This document shows positions 8,885 through 53,106 of a DNA stretch of 64,000 nt, one piece after another (within the stretch, counting starts at the first letter, position 1; the number at the start of each line of letters is the position of its first letter). The translations under genes and the position numbers were made by a program. The stretch is from Sandaracinus amylolyticus (GTDB lineage Bacteria > Myxococcota_A > Polyangia > Polyangiales > Sandaracinaceae): assembly GCF_021631985.1 (NCBI RefSeq), contig NZ_CP070225.1, forward strand, positions 7,316,001-7,380,000, written 5' to 3'. The notes under the pieces were generated by a model that saw only the letters and a list, made by a program, of their open reading frames with translations, was not told the origin of the DNA and made no database searches.

Positions 8885-10030
8885 TCACGGGCTCGCGAGC
8901 GCGTCGAGCGTGGCGCTGTACACGTCGCTCGACGACGCCTGGCCGAGCCCCTCCGCGCGGCGCCCACCGACGCTGTAGACGCGACCGCCGAACGCCGGCG
9001 TCTGGTGCACGTGGGCGCGCGGGTACGGCAGCGGCGCGAGCTCCTCGATCGCCCCCACGTGGCCGGTCGCGTCGAACGGCAGACGCACGATCCGATCGGT
9101 CGGACCTCCGCCGATCCCGCCGCCGACCATCATCACTGCGTCCTCGCGCTCGATCGCCGACGCCGTCCACGCCGGCTCCGCGAGCGCACCGACGTCCTCC
9201 CACGCGCCGAGCACGCCGCCTTCTCCGATCGCCGCGCGCACCACGCTCGTCGCCGGCGCCGGCGGGCCCGCGAACCCCGCCGCGACGTAGAGGTGACCGT
9301 CGTGCGCCACGAGCACGTGATGGCTGCGCTCCGCGGGCAGCGCGGTCTCGTCGCGCGCGTCGTCGATCACGCCGCCCGCGACCCGCAGCGAGCGCACCGC
9401 GGTGTGCGATGACGCCGCGCCCGCGCCTCCGCCGACCAGATACAGGCGCTCGCCCACGATCGCCGCCGCGCCGTGCAGCGTGGCCGTCGCGATCGCCTCG
9501 AGGCCCTGCCACGGCCCGACGTGGCCCTCGTCGTCGACGCTCGACCACATCACGAACGGGATCCACCCGAGCGAGCCGTCGTCGCGCGTGCTGACACCTC
9601 CGGCGAGCACGATCGTGCTCTCGGTCGTCGCGATCACGTGGAACGCGAGCGGCGCCGGGAGCGCGCGCTCGAGCTCCCACGCGCCGAGCGCTCCGTCGTC
9701 GCCGATCCGCGCGCGGTGGATCGTGTCGTGGATTGCCAGCGGCCGTCCGCTCGAGTCCGCGGTCATGCCGCCGAGCACGTAGAGGTACGCGCCCGCCGCG
9801 CTCTCGACGATCGCGGTCGCGTGGTGATCGACGCCCGTCGGGAACGAGGGCTCGCGACGCCACGGCGCGCGCAGCGCGGGCAGCGGCGGGCCTCCGTCGT
9901 CGGGCTGCGATGCGTCGGGCTGCGATGCGTCGGGCTCGACGTGGGAGCTCGCGTCGGACGACGCGTCGATCGGCGTGGACGGCGTGCTGCACGCGACCAG
10001 CAAGAGCACGGCGAGCGATGAAGTGCGCAT
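8885..10030 (-). CDS. Kelch-repeat-type lipoprotein
   Basis: A 381-residue lipoprotein: the N-terminus MRTSSLAVLLLVAC carries a lipobox, followed by a Ser/Asp/Pro-rich linker with a short DASQP tandem. From about residue 50 there are roughly six blade-like units with the Kelch signature of paired glycines (YVLGGM, VLAGGV, YLVGGG, YVAAGF, MMVGGG, YSVGGR). These should form a beta-propeller outside the cytoplasm. Units also share GxLGAWE or GHVGPW, as seen in related myxobacterial propellers. No catalytic residues of galactose oxidase were identified. Its stop faces the desulfhydrase stop across 3 bp. It probably shares a promoter region with nothing else; the AraC-type gene ends 36 bp upstream. 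Function unknown. Confidence 0.82.
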   Translation of the reverse strand: MRTSSLAVLLLVACSTPSTPIDASSDASSHVEPDASQPDASQPDDGGPPLPALRAPWRREPSFPTGVDHHATAIVESAAGAYLYVLGGMTADSSGRPLAIHDTIHRARIGDDGALGAWELERALPAPLAFHVIATTESTIVLAGGVSTRDDGSLGWIPFVMWSSVDDEGHVGPWQGLEAIATATLHGAAAIVGERLYLVGGGAGAASSHTAVRSLRVAGGVIDDARDETALPAERSHHVLVAHDGHLYVAAGFAGPPAPATSVVRAAIGEGGVLGAWEDVGALAEPAWTASAIEREDAVMMVGGGIGGGPTDRIVRLPFDATGHVGAIEELAPLPYPRAHVHQTPAFGGRVYSVGGRRAEGLGQASSSDVYSATLDALASP

Positions 10031-10066: not shown

Positions 10067-10813
10067 TCACGGCGATTGCTGCGCTCGTTCCGCGCGTTGC
10101 TCTTCTCGCCACGCGGCCGGGCTCTGCGCGAAGCACGCGCGGAACGCCTCGCTGAGCCGCCCCGCGGAGCTGAACCCGCACGCGAACGCGATCTCGACGA
10201 TCGAGCGATCGGTCGCGCGCAGCAGGATCGCAGCGCGCTCGGCGCGGAGCCGGCGCAGGTACGCCATCGGCGCGAGGCCCACGTCGCGCCGGAACGAGCG
10301 CGCGAAGTGGTGGCGGCTCATGCGGGCGCGGCGCGCGAGCTCGCTCAGCGTGACCGGCGCGGCAGGATCGCGGTCGAGCGAGCGCACGACCCGGAGCACG
10401 CGCGGATCGATCGAGGTGCCGAGCGGCGCCGCGAGGGCGCGGGTCGCGTCGACGAGCGCGCGCGCCGCGCTCTCGAGCTCGCCGCGCGGCGCGGTCGGCG
10501 GCGGGAACGATCGCAGCACGCGCGCCACGTCGCCTTCGCACGGATGAACCCCGCTGGCGAGACTGACCTGCGGTGACGCGAAGAGGTGCAGCACGTGGCT
10601 CGTGACCTCGTCGTCGAGCGTCCAGCTCGAGTGCGGTGTACCCGGCGCGATCACCGAGAAGTGATCGGCGTCGAGGCAGTGGGGCGCGCCGTCGACCGTC
10701 GCGGCGATGCGGCCGCTCGTCACCCACACGATCTCGATCGTCGGGTGCGCCGCGTCCTGCGGCCCTCGCTGGAACGGCGCGATGGTGCGTGCGCTGTAGC
10801 TCGAGACCAGCAT
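10067..10813 (-). CDS. AraC-family transcriptional regulator
   Basis: A 248-residue regulator. Residues 1-100 form a cupin-like sensing domain (EIVWVTSGRI, then PHCLDADHFSVIAPGTPHS). Residues 150-240 hold the two helix-turn-helix motifs of AraC/XylS proteins (LSELARRARMSRHHFARSF, then IVEIAFACGFSSAGRLSEAF). The ATG at 10813 was chosen as the first start that gives a normal-length sensing domain. The open frame extends upstream through the 21-bp repeats, but that part is repetitive and not protein-like. The gene reads away from the repeat array, so the array and the rest of 10814-11358 make up its upstream region. Target genes are unknown; the Kelch lipoprotein downstream on the same strand is one candidate. 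Confidence 0.88.
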   Translation of the reverse strand: MLVSSYSARTIAPFQRGPQDAAHPTIEIVWVTSGRIAATVDGAPHCLDADHFSVIAPGTPHSSWTLDDEVTSHVLHLFASPQVSLASGVHPCEGDVARVLRSFPPPTAPRGELESAARALVDATRALAAPLGTSIDPRVLRVVRSLDRDPAAPVTLSELARRARMSRHHFARSFRRDVGLAPMAYLRRLRAERAAILLRATDRSIVEIAFACGFSSAGRLSEAFRACFAQSPAAWREEQRAERAQQSP

Positions 10814-10954
10814 GCGACGGACGAGCGTATCAGCGTGTCCACCGACGGCGTCGGCGGAGCGGCGAAGGCGCGGAATCCCTGTCGGCGACGCGTGACCCGC
10901 TTCACGGGAAGCGTGGAATTCGCAGCACTGTCGTGTACTTCCGCGCGCGGAACC

Positions 10955-11268
10955 ACGAGCTTCACCTCGTACACGCGAAGCTTCACCTCGTACACGCGAA
11001 GCTTCACCTCGTACACGCGAAGCTTCACCTCGGACACGCGAAGCTTCACCTCGGACACACGAAGCTTCACGTCGTACGCGCGAAGCTCGAACCGTACGCG
11101 CGAAGCTCCACCTCGCACGCGCGAAGCTCCCACTCGGACACCCGAAGCTCCAGGTCGGAACGAACGAGCTCCACCTCGGACACACGAAGCTGGAGGTCGG
11201 AGCCGACGAGCTTCACCCCGTACACGCGGAGCTTCACCTCGGACACGCGACGCTCCGGGTCCCGCGCA
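10955..11268. repeat. Fifteen tandem copies of a 21-bp repeat
   Basis: Consensus CGAAGCTTCACCTCGTACAC plus G. Copies begin every 21 bp from 10955; one copy (11081-11100) is 20 bp. The first six are nearly identical and the later ones drift (GCTCCACCTCGGACAC types). The array fills most of the gene-free gap 10814-11358, between the AraC regulator and the PQQ/VIT/vWA gene. All frames stay open through it because 21 is a multiple of three, but translation gives only monotonous heptads and no start sites. A period of 21 bp is two helical turns, so all copies face the same side of the DNA. I see no other gene in the gap. Confidence 0.95.
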
Positions 11269-11358
11269 CGTCGCTGCCACTCCGAGTCTTTCGTCTCCAC
11301 CGCCCAAGGCGGTCACGTCGCGCTCGGTCGCACGCACTCGACAGGCGGAGGGGCCGTC

Positions 11359-14300
11359 ATGGACCGAGGAACGTCGGGCGTCGCGCGCGGGGCATATCGC
11401 GCGCGCGGAGGGATCTGTGTCGTCGCGATCGCGCTGATCGCGAGCGGATGTGGCGCCGGGCAGGACGCGCAGCCAGCGTCTCCGCCACGCGCGCCGAGGC
11501 CCGCGCCCGCGGCGCCGGTCGCGATCGCGCCGCCACCCGCGCCGCGTGATCTCGACGGCGCCGCCGCGCGCCCGCCCGAGCCGACGATCCCCGCCGACAC
11601 GACGCCGCTCGCCGCGCGCTTCACGCCGCGCCCGCTCGCGATGCCGCGGGTGCGCAGCGGTCGCAGCGCGCGCTTCACGTTCGACGGACAGCGACGCGGA
11701 TGGTTCGCGCGGCTGCCCGAGGCGACACGCGAGAACCCGCTCACGCCGGTCTACGCGCAGGGCCGCGTGATGCTCGGCGGAGGCTTCTCGAGCCACACGT
11801 TCTACGCGTTCGACGCGCGCACCGGCGAGCTCGACTGGCGCGCGTCCGCGCCCGACGGCGGGCCCACCGCCGCGATCGTCGAGGACGGCAAGGTGCTGTT
11901 CAACACCGAGAGCTGCACCCTCTTCGTCGTCGATGCGCGCACCGGGAGGCAGCGCTGGTCGCGGTGGCTCGGTGATCCGCTGATGAGCCAGCCCGCCGCC
12001 GCGAACGGTCGCGTCTTCAGCGGGCACGTGCGCGACGGAGGTGGCTACGGGTTCACCGCGATGGACCTCGACACCGGCCGCGTGCTGTGGACGCGCAACG
12101 TGCCCGCCGACGTGCTCAACGCGCCGGTGCTCGACGGCACCGACGTGTTCTTCACCACGATGGACGGCACGGTGTGGCGCCTCGATCAGCGCACCGGGCG
12201 CGTGGTGTGGCGAGAGCGGCTCGATGCGACGAGCGCGCCCTGGCTCCACGGCGAGACGGTGCACGTCGCGCGTCGGACGCGCCGCCAGAACGAGTCGGGC
12301 GGGCGCGAGACGATCGAGGTCGCGACGGTGCTCGCGAAGAGCGATGGCGCGACGATGCGCGAGCACGAGGGCGCGCCCGCGTCGTTCCTGCCTTCGCGAC
12401 CCGACAGCGGCGGCGTGCAGGCGGGATGGGCGTTCGAGGGCTCGCGCCCGACGATCGTCGACGGCCGCGCGTACCAGACGATCGGCAACGAGGTGCAGGC
12501 GCGCGACGCCGAGACCGGCGCGCTCCTGTGGCGTCGCCAGTACACCGACGCGGCGCGCACGCGGCCTGCGAGCTCACCGGCGATCGCGGGCGCGCAGATG
12601 GTGTTCGGCACGCGAGACGGAGTGATCTTCGGGCTCGACATCGACACCGGGATGACTGCGTGGGCGTACGACGTGGGCGAGCCGATCGCGGCGCAGCCGA
12701 CGGTCGCGCACGGCTGGGTGTACGCGAGCACGACGCGCGGCGGGCTCGTCGCGCTCGAGGTGGGCGACGACACGCTCGACGGCTGGCACATGTGGGGCGG
12801 AAACGCGCAGCACACCGGCCCGGTGATCGGCGACGTCGCGCCGAGCGAAGCGGAGGAGCGACCGAGCGAAGGCACGCTGCGCCTCGCGGGCAACGCGCGC
12901 GAGGGCGAGGTCGCGGGGTTCGTGCTGCAGTCGACGCGCGTGTCGGCGCGCGTCAGCGGGTTCGTCGCGCGGGTGAGCGTGGAGCAGGAGTTCGCGAACC
13001 CCTACTCGCGCGCGGTGGAGGCGGTGTACCTGTTCCCGCTGCCCGAGAGCGCCGCGGTCGACGCGATGGAGCTGCGCGCCGGAGATCGTGTGGTGCACGC
13101 CGACATCCGCCGTCGTCACGAGGCGCGCGAGGCGTACGACGACGCGCGACGTCGCGGTGTGCTCGCGAGCTTGCTCGAGCAGGAGCGACCGAACCTGTTC
13201 CGTCAGAGCGTCGCGAACGTGCAGCCCGGTCAGAGCGTCCGGGTGGTGCTCCAGTACACCCAGGCAATGCCCTACGAGGAGGGCTCGCATCGATTCGTCT
13301 ACCCGATGGTGGCGGGACCTCGTTATTCATCTGGTGAATCATCGACCCCGCGCCAGATCGTGCTCGCGCCGGGAGAAGCGCGCCCCGATCGCGTCGAGGT
13401 CGCGATCGATGCGGACCTCGGGGTCGCGGTGTCGGAGGTGGAGTCGCCCACCCACGCGATCGACGTGACGCGCTCGAACGATCGGCGGGTGCGGGTCTCG
13501 CTGCGCGAAGCGGCGCGCGCGGATCGTGATCTCGAGGTGCGGTTCCGGGTCGCCGGTGAGGCGCCCACCGTGTCGACGATGGCGAGCGCGCCGATCGAGG
13601 GCGACGCCGGGCATCTCGCGCTCTCGATCCATCCCCGGCTCGACGTGCCCGAGGGCGAGACCACGCCGCGCGAGCTCGTCTTCGTGGTCGACACCTCGAG
13701 CTCGATGAACGGACGCCCGATCGAGCTCGCGCGCGCCGCGACGATCACCGCGCTGCGTGGGCTGCGTGCGAGCGACACCTTCCGCGTGCTCGGCTTCTCG
13801 GATGCGGTGCGGGCGCTCGATGCGGGCGCGCTGGCCGCGACGCCCGAGAACGTCGCGCGCGCCGAGCGATTCGTCGGCGAGCTGCGCGCGCTCGGCGCGA
13901 CCGAGATGATCTCGGGGCTGCGCGCCGCGCTCGAGCCCGCGGGCGAAGCGGGACGCATGCGCGTCGTCGTGCTGCTGACCGACGGGTACATCGGGAACGA
14001 GACCGACGTCTTCCGCGTGGTGCACGACGAGCTCGGCGATGCGCGCGTGTTCGCGTTCGGCGTGGGCAGCGCGGTGAACCGCTACCTGCTGGCGCGCGTC
14101 GCGGAAGAAGGGCGCGGCGACGTGCAGGTGGTGCTGCCGAGCGAGTCGCCGGAGCGCGCGGCCGAGGCGTTCCACGCGCGCATCGCGCGGCCCTATCTGA
14201 CCGACGTCTCGATCGACTGGAACGGGCTCGCGGTGAGCGATGCCTACCCGCGTCGACTGCCCGATCTGTTCGCGGATCGCCCGCTGCGCGTGCACGCGCG

Positions 14301-14961
14301 GTATGCGCGCGGCGGTGAGGGCGAGATCGTGATCCGCGGTCGTGTCGCGGGACGTCCGTTCGAGCAGCGCGTGCAGGTGTCGCTCCCCGCGAGCGGCGGC
14401 GATGCGCGCGAGGAGCTGGGATCGATCTGGGCGCGCACGCGCGTCGGTGATCTGATGACCGCGCTCGAGCTCGCGCCGAACGCGACGCTGCAGGAAGAGG
14501 TCACGCAGCTCGGGCTGCGGCATCACCTGCTCACGCCGTGGACCGCGTTCGTCGCGATCGACGAGAGCCAGCGCGCCGAGGGCGAGGCCGTGCGCGTGGA
14601 GCAGCCGAGCGACCTGCCCTCGGGGATGGTCGCGAGCGAGCGCGCGATGCGCGGTCGTGCCGTGAGCATCGCGCCGCCGCCGCGCCCCGCGGCGAGCGGG
14701 GGAGCGAGCATGGGCGGGGGCGGCTACGGAAGGATGACGATGGGCGCGCTGGGAGCCGAGGAGCACGACGCGCCGGTCGCGGCGCCCGAGCCGAGCCCGC
14801 CGCCGGTCGCGCGGAGCGAAGCGCGCCGCAGGAGCTCGCGCAGCGACGGCCCGGGCATGTGCATGGAGCAGGCGCGCCGCGCCGATGGCACGATCGACGA
14901 GGACGTGCTGCGACGTTGTCTCGCCGCGCTCGCCGAGGTCGCACGGCCGCGCGAGGAGTGA
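11359..14961 (+). CDS. PQQ-like beta-propeller / VIT / vWA fusion lipoprotein
   Basis: A 1200-residue lipoprotein (lipobox LIASGC) with a Pro/Ala-rich linker. Residues 90-490 form a PQQ-type beta-propeller with repeated blade motifs such as FDARTGELDWRA, VDARTGRQRWSRW, MDLDTGRVLWTR and LDIDTGMTAWAY. A VIT domain follows (about 505-660, VEQEFANPYSRAVEAVYLFPLP), then a vWA domain near 770-945 with an intact metal site DTSSS and LLTDGYIGN. The VIT plus vWA pair is that of inter-alpha-trypsin-inhibitor heavy chains; the propeller in front of it is unusual. The C-terminus is low-complexity, with a last segment holding two cysteines. ATG 11359 has GGAGGGG upstream. The protein is probably a surface scaffold with metal-dependent ligand binding. 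The 21-bp array lies directly upstream and may control it. Confidence 0.88.
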   Translation: MDRGTSGVARGAYRARGGICVVAIALIASGCGAGQDAQPASPPRAPRPAPAAPVAIAPPPAPRDLDGAAARPPEPTIPADTTPLAARFTPRPLAMPRVRSGRSARFTFDGQRRGWFARLPEATRENPLTPVYAQGRVMLGGGFSSHTFYAFDARTGELDWRASAPDGGPTAAIVEDGKVLFNTESCTLFVVDARTGRQRWSRWLGDPLMSQPAAANGRVFSGHVRDGGGYGFTAMDLDTGRVLWTRNVPADVLNAPVLDGTDVFFTTMDGTVWRLDQRTGRVVWRERLDATSAPWLHGETVHVARRTRRQNESGGRETIEVATVLAKSDGATMREHEGAPASFLPSRPDSGGVQAGWAFEGSRPTIVDGRAYQTIGNEVQARDAETGALLWRRQYTDAARTRPASSPAIAGAQMVFGTRDGVIFGLDIDTGMTAWAYDVGEPIAAQPTVAHGWVYASTTRGGLVALEVGDDTLDGWHMWGGNAQHTGPVIGDVAPSEAEERPSEGTLRLAGNAREGEVAGFVLQSTRVSARVSGFVARVSVEQEFANPYSRAVEAVYLFPLPESAAVDAMELRAGDRVVHADIRRRHEAREAYDDARRRGVLASLLEQERPNLFRQSVANVQPGQSVRVVLQYTQAMPYEEGSHRFVYPMVAGPRYSSGESSTPRQIVLAPGEARPDRVEVAIDADLGVAVSEVESPTHAIDVTRSNDRRVRVSLREAARADRDLEVRFRVAGEAPTVSTMASAPIEGDAGHLALSIHPRLDVPEGETTPRELVFVVDTSSSMNGRPIELARAATITALRGLRASDTFRVLGFSDAVRALDAGALAATPENVARAERFVGELRALGATEMISGLRAALEPAGEAGRMRVVVLLTDGYIGNETDVFRVVHDELGDARVFAFGVGSAVNRYLLARVAEEGRGDVQVVLPSESPERAAEAFHARIARPYLTDVSIDWNGLAVSDAYPRRLPDLFADRPLRVHARYARGGEGEIVIRGRVAGRPFEQRVQVSLPASGGDAREELGSIWARTRVGDLMTALELAPNATLQEEVTQLGLRHHLLTPWTAFVAIDESQRAEGEAVRVEQPSDLPSGMVASERAMRGRAVSIAPPPRPAASGGASMGGGGYGRMTMGALGAEEHDAPVAAPEPSPPPVARSEARRRSSRSDGPGMCMEQARRADGTIDEDVLRRCLAALAEVARPREE

Positions 14962-28854: not shown

Positions 28855-28941
28855 GATCGCCTCCCCAGATCGCGCGATTTCACGGCCAATTCGCGGCATC
28901 GCACAAGCCCTCACCATCGTGGGGCGTGGCGGTGGTCGACG

Positions 28942-28971
28942 GACCACCGCGCGGTGGTCTGCAGACCACCG
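28942..28971. promoter_or_regulatory. Two overlapping perfect palindromes
   Basis: In the 239-bp gap 28855-29093 the sequences GACCACCGCGCGGTGGTC (28942-28959) and CGGTGGTCTGCAGACCACCG (28952-28971) are both perfect palindromes and share eight bases. More half-sites of CGGTGGT or ACCACCG occur up to about 29047. The region is directly upstream of the basic-protein gene (minus strand), so it may be an operator array, or a hairpin formed after the upstream lipoprotein gene. Confidence 0.6.
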
Positions 28972-29093
28972 ACCCGCTCGTCGATCCACCACCGCACGGT
29001 GGTCGCGCGACGAGCGCGCGGTGGTCGCTCCATCGGCACGCGGTGGTGCTCGCTCGGGCGCGAGCACGTCGCGCCACCGGCGCGAGCCCTCGA

Positions 29094-51840: not shown

Positions 51841-53106
51841 GTGCGAGGTGTCCAATCGCGAGAGGGCCCCGGCCCTCTCCAGAGGACCCGATTCGCGCCG
51901 TGGGCGGCCGCGACGTTCGGCATCGTGATGATGTCGAGCATCGCAGTCGCGCCGCGCGCGGCGCACGCGCAGGCCGAAGCCGAGGCCGAGGCCGAGGGCA
52001 CGACCGAAGCCGAGGCTGTCGCCCCGGCCGAGGCCGAGGTCCCGGCCGAGGCCGAGACCGAGGTGGCGGTCGAGGCGGCGGCCGAGGAGCCCGAGGCGCA
52101 GCCGCCCACGACGACCGACGAGCCGGCGACGCCGGATACGACTGCGAGCGTGAGCGCGCAGCAGCCGGCGGATCAGGCCGCACAAGCCCCGGGTGAGCCG
52201 CAGGCGCCGGCTCGTGGGTGCACCGCGCAGGACGTGCTGCGCGGTCTCTGCACCGCAGAGCAGGCGGCGGCGAGCGCAGCGGAGAAGTTCTGGCGCGTGA
52301 TGGGACGAATCGACTACCAGCAGCCGATCGTCCTCGACCGCGATCCCGAGAACGACATCCTCATGTTCTACTATCTCGGGGTCGAATTCGACGTTCCGGT
52401 CCTGCAGGGGCTCTACGCCACGGCGTGGGGTGGTCTCTCGCAGCGATTCTGGACGGTCGATGGGGAGTCGGCCGTCGACTTCACCGATCCCTTCGTCGGC
52501 GTGGGTCTCCGGCACTCGCAGTCGCTGCGCGACATCGGGCTCCCGGATCACTCGCTCCACTTCGTGCACCGGCTCGCCGCGTATTTCCCGGTGTCCCGGG
52601 AGAGCCGCGCGAACCTGTACTACACGGCGCTCGATTGGATCACGGCGATGCGTCTGCCGGTGATCCATCGATTCATGGTGGGTGTCGATCTGCGCGCGCA
52701 GTATCGATTCCACGAGTACGCGGAGCAGAACGGCGCGGTGATCGTCGATGCGTGGGACACCTCGGGTGGTCTCAACACGCGTCTGCGGCTCGAGGCGGGT
52801 CTGCTGCTGCAGCAGGGGATCTTCGACGATCCCACGTTCGGATCGCTGATCGTGCAGGGCTCGGCCGGCATCCGCGGGCTGCTGCGGTACATGGCCGCCG
52901 ACGAGTCGACCACGGGCGCGCGCGATCCGTGGGAGGGCGACTGGTACTGGTCGCTGGGCGCGACGTACACGCCGATCGAGTACGTGTCGCTCACTCTCTC
53001 GCTCGAGCACGGATACAGCGACATCGTGCGCGGCGGCGTGCAGCAGATCATCGGCTTCGATCGTGACGAGACGCGCTTCGTCGTGAGCTTGTTCGGCCGT
53101 TACTGA
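51841..53106 (+). CDS. Outer-membrane beta-barrel protein of the metzincin cassette
   Basis: A 421-residue exported protein. An extended N-terminus holds a signal peptide (cleavage near AAHAQ), then an Ala/Glu-rich linker of about 75 residues (AEAEAEAEG type), then a two-cysteine segment. From about residue 150 alternating strands (ILMFYYLGVEFDVPVLQGLYATAWGG, then FVGVGLRHSQSL) and the final strand RFVVSLFGRY, ending in an aromatic residue, indicate a beta-barrel. The GTG start is 1 bp after the previous stop. Third and last gene of the cassette, followed by a strong terminator. It might be the export or display channel for the protease; this is inference. Confidence 0.78.
   Translation: MRGVQSREGPGPLQRTRFAPWAAATFGIVMMSSIAVAPRAAHAQAEAEAEAEGTTEAEAVAPAEAEVPAEAETEVAVEAAAEEPEAQPPTTTDEPATPDTTASVSAQQPADQAAQAPGEPQAPARGCTAQDVLRGLCTAEQAAASAAEKFWRVMGRIDYQQPIVLDRDPENDILMFYYLGVEFDVPVLQGLYATAWGGLSQRFWTVDGESAVDFTDPFVGVGLRHSQSLRDIGLPDHSLHFVHRLAAYFPVSRESRANLYYTALDWITAMRLPVIHRFMVGVDLRAQYRFHEYAEQNGAVIVDAWDTSGGLNTRLRLEAGLLLQQGIFDDPTFGSLIVQGSAGIRGLLRYMAADESTTGARDPWEGDWYWSLGATYTPIEYVSLTLSLEHGYSDIVRGGVQQIIGFDRDETRFVVSLFGRY

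Follow-up and report, generated by a model that had tools for sequence, protein, structure and literature searches.

A 21-bp intergenic repeat array of Sandaracinus amylolyticus, probably one locus of a REP/BIME-like mosaic repeat family

Between two divergent genes of Sandaracinus amylolyticus lies an array of about 14 head-to-tail 21-bp units, each made of a palindromic 8-bp core and a spacer. On balance we favour placing it, as a single locus, in a family of non-coding mosaic repeats that lie between genes of the Sandaracinaceae and work like the REP/BIME elements. This proposal starts from direct observations: at the array itself, its build, its non-coding pattern of variation, and a place that is conserved in a sister species while the units have changed; in the relative SSF7, dispersal over many loci, a bias toward 3′ gene ends, and spacers that occur flipped. 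Other readings of the array, as an operator, a replication site, a coding repeat or a plain minisatellite, are weighed below, as is a wider pattern in the unit lengths of Sandaracinus arrays.

The array, its neighbours and its counterparts in Sandaracinus

The window is the whole stretch of DNA that was analysed, 64,000 nucleotides long, and positions below are window positions. The features around the array are as follows.

8885..10009, minus strand: Kelch-repeat protein, downstream of the AraC gene (domain search)
10067..10813, minus strand: AraC-family regulator, 248 aa (Pfam HTH_18, 6.8e-23; codon-model gene call)
10814..10957, minus strand: gap from the array to the AraC start codon; identity to the sister species 76% (87/114 aligned, with gaps)
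10958..11254, minus strand: the whole array, about 14 head-to-tail 21-bp units (TRF and unit alignment)
10958..11082, minus strand: homogeneous AraC-side end of near-identical units, holding five perfect GAAGCTTC palindromes
11083..11102, minus strand: single 20-bp unit, at which the 21-bp phase is lost and any reading frame interrupted
11103..11254, minus strand: decayed vWA-side end, including variant units with TCCGACCT
11255..11358, plus strand: leader from the array to the vWA start codon; identity to the sister species 92% (94/102 aligned)
11359..14961, plus strand: 1200-aa protein with PQQ_2, VIT and VWA domains (domain search; codon-model gene call)

The AraC and PQQ/VIT/vWA genes form a divergent pair with the array between them. 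TRF reports the array at 10958-11254 with a period of 21, 14.2 copies and a score of 301. Its self-match at lag 21 is 0.70, while the best lag of 15-30 reached at most 0.398 in 2000 dinucleotide shuffles. With the gene calls, these results bear out the tandem array between divergent genes that had been described in a sequence-only reading of the stretch. Some particulars of that description change: its fifteen repeats are about 14 units plus ends, its period of exactly 21 bp holds for all units but the one of 20 bp (11083-11102), and its ‘giant’ vWA lipoprotein, whose N-terminus looks lipobox-like by eye, measures 1200 aa. Unit comparison upheld the near-identity of copies at the AraC-side end and their decay toward the vWA side, and this gradient of unit identity supports the recent amplification at one end that had been suggested.

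Read on the minus strand, a unit consists of the 8-bp core GAAGCTTC, or a close variant of it, and a 13-bp spacer, most commonly GCGTGTACGAGGT. The core is perfect in five of the 16 cores parsed in the window, all of them on the AraC side, and 14 of the 16 retain AGCT at their centre. All spacers of the window array have a single orientation. No inverted repeat longer than the 8-bp core was found in the window unit, whose palindrome taken alone is not unusual (p 0.38). No Rfam covariance model matched in 10600-11500 at E ≤ 0.1, and a promoter and terminator scan, the promoter part covering the sigma-70 consensus only, found neither.

In a sister species of the same genus (G001) an array stands between the orthologous AraC and vWA genes, with no indels by TRF. 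The AraC proteins of the two species are 87% identical and the vWA proteins 94.6% (1132/1197). There are about 14 units in each array, and both the sequence and the order of the units differ from those of the window in this one other species compared. Variant units with TCCGACCT are common to both species, again in orders that do not correspond. In the G001 array homogeneity is seen in the units on the AraC side and also in several on the vWA side, so that a polarity of growth is not established.

The genome from which the window comes (G000) holds a second array at C1:10232336-10232549, the sole other match at E ≤ 0.001 with 40 of 98 candidates scored. This array, unlinked to the window locus, comes after a Uma2 gene between two convergent genes, and over 21/21 bp its final units match units of the window array exactly. 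The orthologous Uma2 gap of G001, found by synteny (the Uma2 genes align at 92.7%), contains a 21-bp array too. Its unit is not recognisably homologous, with scores of 11 and 23 against a spacer-shuffled mean of 24.3, and for this reason an inversion of the array between the species was dropped as a candidate. Both places thus carry a 21-bp array in either species, with unit sequences that have changed. A pattern that was loose around AGCT proved unspecific in G000 (16 matches against 12 in the control), and weak matches in G000, G009, G011 and G016 resembled unrelated GC-rich repeats.

Dispersed arrays in SSF7 and the comparison with REP and BIME elements

Among 183 genomes of the order, searched with no more than 4 candidates scored in each, matches at E ≤ 1e-7 came from G000, G001 and SSF7 (G008, Sandaracinaceae) only; repetition inflates the BLAST E-values of one array against another. 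SSF7, queried with one of its own arrays, yielded at least 41 matches (E ≤ 0.01; 31/130 candidates scored). We parsed 30 SSF7 arrays, one per locus (L026, L028 and 28 further stretches), the loci having been chosen by similarity to one SSF7 array and the arrays located with the unit that carries spacer A, defined below; an array within a kinase gene (L027) was left out.

The SSF7 cores are joined by two kinds of spacer, A (TCGTGGCC(G)AGCCC) and B (TCGCGTGTCGACC). All but one of the 107 spacers (106/107) are A, A′, B or B′ within an edit distance of 4, a limit that 4.5% of random 13-mers reach. Both kinds occur together in 15 of the 30 arrays. Both orientations occur in 7/30, one of which (L234) rests on a weak distance-4 B′ call; at L240 an exact A′ adjoins an exact A. 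Agreement among SSF7 units is 0.93 in the core and 0.85 in the rest (104 units). When each locus contributes one majority unit the values are 0.93 and 0.90, with a perfect core at 16 of 30 loci; on the strength of this per-locus comparison we do not claim selection on the palindrome, and special keeping of it is doubtful. A function as an RNA hairpin was also rejected: nine of ten folded strands gave z ≤ -1.5 and one +1.3, but good folding is expected of tandem palindromes by their build, and the keeping of the palindrome is doubtful as just said. Nor are hairpins general, 4/25 array units having p < 0.05.

Thirty SSF7 arrays were placed relative to called genes, in a set that differs slightly from the parsed one (L258 is below the threshold and L243 is counted with two arrays). 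Nine are convergent, 12 tandem and four divergent, three lie inside a called gene and two are half-open. The divergent setting, which is that of the window array, is thus the rarer one, with 4/25 of the fully flanked arrays. Of the flanking 3′ gene ends 19/31, and of the flanking 5′ ends 2/21, come within 30 bp of an array, small overlaps included (Fisher p 1.8e-4). The named gene neighbour of array L026 is OsmC.

Some other stretches are set down here as side observations. At L027 9480-9667 SSF7 has a 21-bp array, CTCGCGAAGCTCCCACGGCGG, inside a protein-kinase gene (Pfam Pkinase), where it is read as an AREAPTA linker; this may be a coding cousin of the repeat family or a coincidence. The congener G004 yielded no array match at E ≤ 1e-7. 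One non-coding stretch in it, L263 1573-1644 (G004:C27), has about 2.6-3 21-bp units like the SSF7 unit (score 55, E 8.5e-5) and may be a decayed relative. A pattern scan of contigs returned at least 116 stretches, and among the matches listed only L177 (SSF7) is in an array.

The kinship of the window and SSF7 arrays was examined by shuffling. Scored against three SSF7 units, none of 400 whole-unit shuffles reached the observed score. When spacers alone were shuffled, the score was reached 3/400 times for the major window unit, 0/400 for the variant unit and 0/400 for the G001 unit. The free edit distance of window spacers to SSF7 A and B was no better than that of shuffles (p 0.17 and 0.40). 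From these sequence comparisons it is likely, if not proven, that the window and SSF7 arrays are one family.

In such a family, palindromic GAAGCTTC cores and 13-14 bp spacers would make up units of 21-22 bp, which would multiply by slippage or unequal exchange. At a core, which reads alike on both strands, copying might at times switch to the opposite strand and thereby flip a spacer. Short arrays would reach new gaps by copying or gene conversion, chiefly at 3′ ends, which would tolerate them. Any effect on the AraC and vWA neighbours would likely be incidental, that of a spacer or insulator, with no private control role. By analogy with REPs, a role at the RNA level at 3′ ends is possible.

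The setting described for REPs is near the 3′ ends of genes, mainly with convergent or unidirectional neighbours (PMC3733652), and the SSF7 arrays resemble them in being intergenic, palindromic, near 3′ ends and in convergent gaps. REPs of the GTAG and CGTC super-families carry such a tag at one end; inspection by eye found neither GTAG nor CGTC on either strand of the major window unit or of SSF7 A and B. A REP module is an imperfect palindrome of 20-40 bp, whereas the stem here is 8 bp, too short for one. The present family occurs as arrays, of which only two were found in G000 (40/98 candidates scored) and 30 loci were parsed in SSF7 (31/130 scored), both counts being lower bounds beside the more than 100 copies per genome of REPs.

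With BIMEs (PMC2817692) the family has in common palindromic modules, few short spacer kinds, regular spacing, intergenic position and uneven occurrence across related genomes; the mixed orientation of some SSF7 arrays is a likeness in part. The contrasts with BIMEs are that the 8-bp palindrome is not a REP, that the arrays are mostly head-to-tail rather than alternating, that the unit equals two turns, and that an association with RAYT was not found. Y1_Tnp (RAYT-type) genes number 0 in G000 and 0 in G001. SSF7 has six, one of them scoring below the cut-off, and none lies on a contig from which an array stretch was taken; G004 has 11; no mobilising enzyme was identified in these searches. A further likeness is to the palindromic tandem loci of Stenotrophomonas MLVA, which PMC2613905 describes as short palindromic repeats of variable number at particular loci; they come from another organism and another method, and are likened here by description, not by sequence. 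A search of the literature, without most subscription journals, gave no account of this repeat family or of the 20-23/40-44 bp clustering treated below.

Alternative readings of the array

The sequence-only reading had proposed a cooperative binding array for a regulator, or a variable-number site that changes the expression of either neighbour, and had looked to a genome search for the same repeat as a check, with presence at many random loci counting against the idea. The 30 parsed loci in SSF7, often beside 3′ gene ends, come close to the many random loci envisaged, and a binding array for the neighbours is not supported when the family occurs also there and in an unlinked convergent gap. 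Read as an operator, the array would be bound at its 21-bp repeats by the divergent AraC protein, which would control both its own amount and that of the vWA lipoprotein. A two-turn spacing of direct repeats suits AraC-type half-sites, the array lies between the divergent AraC and vWA genes in both species, and the vWA-side leader is well conserved between them (92%). However, the unit sequence differs between the species though the AraC protein is 87% identical, and no AraC match is near the array at the Uma2 locus, the nearest among the matches listed being about 83 kb away. A G003 homologue of the AraC protein (41%), the only homologue examined and a distant one, has no array in the stretches examined and has a TPR gene 14 bp upstream; it adjoins a Kelch homologue (147/363 aligned columns identical). 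We regard an AraC operator as unlikely, and as less likely than a REP/BIME-like repeat. Direct repeats of 21-22 bp at two-turn spacing are also typical of iterons, and the array has this form, but none of the three adjoining genes examined (AraC, Kelch, PQQ/VIT/VWA) is Rep or Par and the 30 parsed SSF7 loci are often at gene ends; an iteron-like replication or partition site is scarcely credible.

It is very improbable that the array is coding, with the minus-strand frame RVYEVKL belonging to a coiled-coil protein or to a relic of a Uma2 tail. Frames are open on several strands, the array at the Uma2 locus continues in the Uma2 frame past the stop codon, and the gene caller gives a 77-aa ORF at 11067-11300 a weak score of 18.7, though we do not believe in this ORF. 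Against these points, pairwise variation at the three codon positions is 0.286, 0.301 and 0.313 (35 units from three arrays, the 20-bp unit excluded). No codon position is protected, so the array is not coding; the same even variation answers the possibility, raised in the sequence-only reading, that the repeat is translated as part of a protein, and a coding repeat was rejected on it. The 20-bp unit moreover breaks the frame, and the SSF7 units, with spacers of 12-14 bp, keep none. A C-terminal coiled-coil relic of Uma2 was rejected since such a tail follows none of the other eight Uma2 matches of G000 (0/8). A plain minisatellite, in which the array is a local slippage product without function and resembles SSF7 by chance, is a doubtful reading with more in its favour. 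Bacterial minisatellites and VNTRs show tandem amplification with a homogenised end, and the window array is like them in its head-to-tail tandem copies, its homogenised end and the gradient of unit identity along it. There are other non-coding arrays with unrelated units in G000 and G001, and the free spacer distances are not significant. The reading has to contend with the units identical over 21/21 bp at the second locus of the same genome, with the register-aware unit test against SSF7, and with the restriction of matches at E ≤ 1e-7 to three of the 183 genomes searched in the order (at most 4 candidates scored per genome). The array family also differs from a minisatellite in that it is dispersed in one relative, SSF7, where its spacers are flipped.

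Unit lengths of Sandaracinus arrays and what the family may mean

The REP/BIME-like mosaic family that we prefer has units of a length that recurs in other arrays of the genus. We scanned 1.664 Mb of Sandaracinus, comprising three 400-kb pieces of G000, one piece of G001 and the window. There are 46 non-coding TRF arrays, and their units measure 20-23 bp in 13 and 40-44 bp in 11. Periods between 25 and 60 bp fall in 40-44 in 11 of 14 cases (binomial p 9e-8) and those between 12 and 32 bp fall in 20-23 in 13 of 26 (p 4e-4), the bins of both tests having been set after most of the data were seen. Autocorrelation over the first 1.264 Mb gave 52 significant gaps, 10 at 21-22 bp and 11 at 41-43 bp. 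In the piece of G000 added last (9.0-9.4 Mb) the 41-42 bp class came up again three times; it had no 20-23 bp TRF array, and one gap with lag 20 by autocorrelation.

Taking coding and non-coding arrays together, 40-44 bp units make up 11/123 in Sandaracinus, 0/39 in G007 (400 kb) and 0/25 at 115 loci of other genomes (835 kb, not matched for G+C). Two-turn arrays do occur in these controls, as four non-coding 21-bp arrays in G007 (two side-by-side pairs) and two of 22 bp at the 115 loci. Both length classes favour convergent gaps (8/24 against 67/534, p 0.009) and avoid divergent gaps (2/24 against 182/534, p 0.007); of the two arrays in divergent gaps, that of the window is one. From one array to the next the unit sequences are for the most part unrelated. 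A few of the 21-bp arrays, one or two, may in fact be coding, such as G001:7855913, for which a different test gave that call.

Four arrays with tandem units of 83-91 bp and, by eye, a GC-rich inverted repeat form one family common to both species (G000:C1:1028215, 9004326 and 9022351; G001:C1:7799473). Arrays of 42 bp that look low in G+C by eye lie at G000:C1:1005828-1005963 and G001:C1:7778422-7778634, and the unit of the latter holds the inverted repeat CTGGATTTCAAATCCAG. The window itself contains about 4.5 copies of a 22-bp unit, GCGGTGGTCGACGGACCACCGC, at 28929-29084, with a 9-bp stem and a 4-base loop (p 0.01 against shuffles), between minus-strand genes; a cruder test put this array in an ORF. 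At 51971-52087 there is a degenerate 6-bp repeat, AGGCCG, in about 19.5 copies.

Two explanations of the lengths were tried and rejected. DNA curvature was set aside, as the units show no helical phasing of A/T (median p 0.70 for 20-23 bp and 0.71 for 40-44 bp), and 42 bp is not in general a dimer of 21, a clear lag-21 match being present in 1/11 arrays (G000c:9051355, 0.61) and slightly raised values in two (0.43 and 0.45). Among A/T phasing, a general palindrome and a general half period, no sequence feature was found that explains the lengths.

A tentative reading is that non-coding arrays of Sandaracinus, that of the window included, are quantised at about two and four DNA turns (20-23 and 40-44 bp) through a sensing of helical geometry. 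On this reading, lengths that cluster while the units are mostly unrelated would point to something that senses that geometry and makes or keeps the arrays, be it a protein that wraps or bridges DNA or a process of staggered duplication. The GAAGCTTC family would fit the length rule, with 8+13 or 8+14 bp and the palindrome as a hinge for spacer flips.

What is known of REP/BIME elements comes mainly through their transposase and tags. A family that combines an 8-bp palindrome and two swappable spacers with a two-turn unit, and has no recognised link to a transposase, would mean that mosaic intergenic repeats can both arise and spread by a route other than that of REPs. If the clustering of unit lengths holds genome-wide, it would provide a testable link between the helical geometry of DNA and the formation of bacterial minisatellites.
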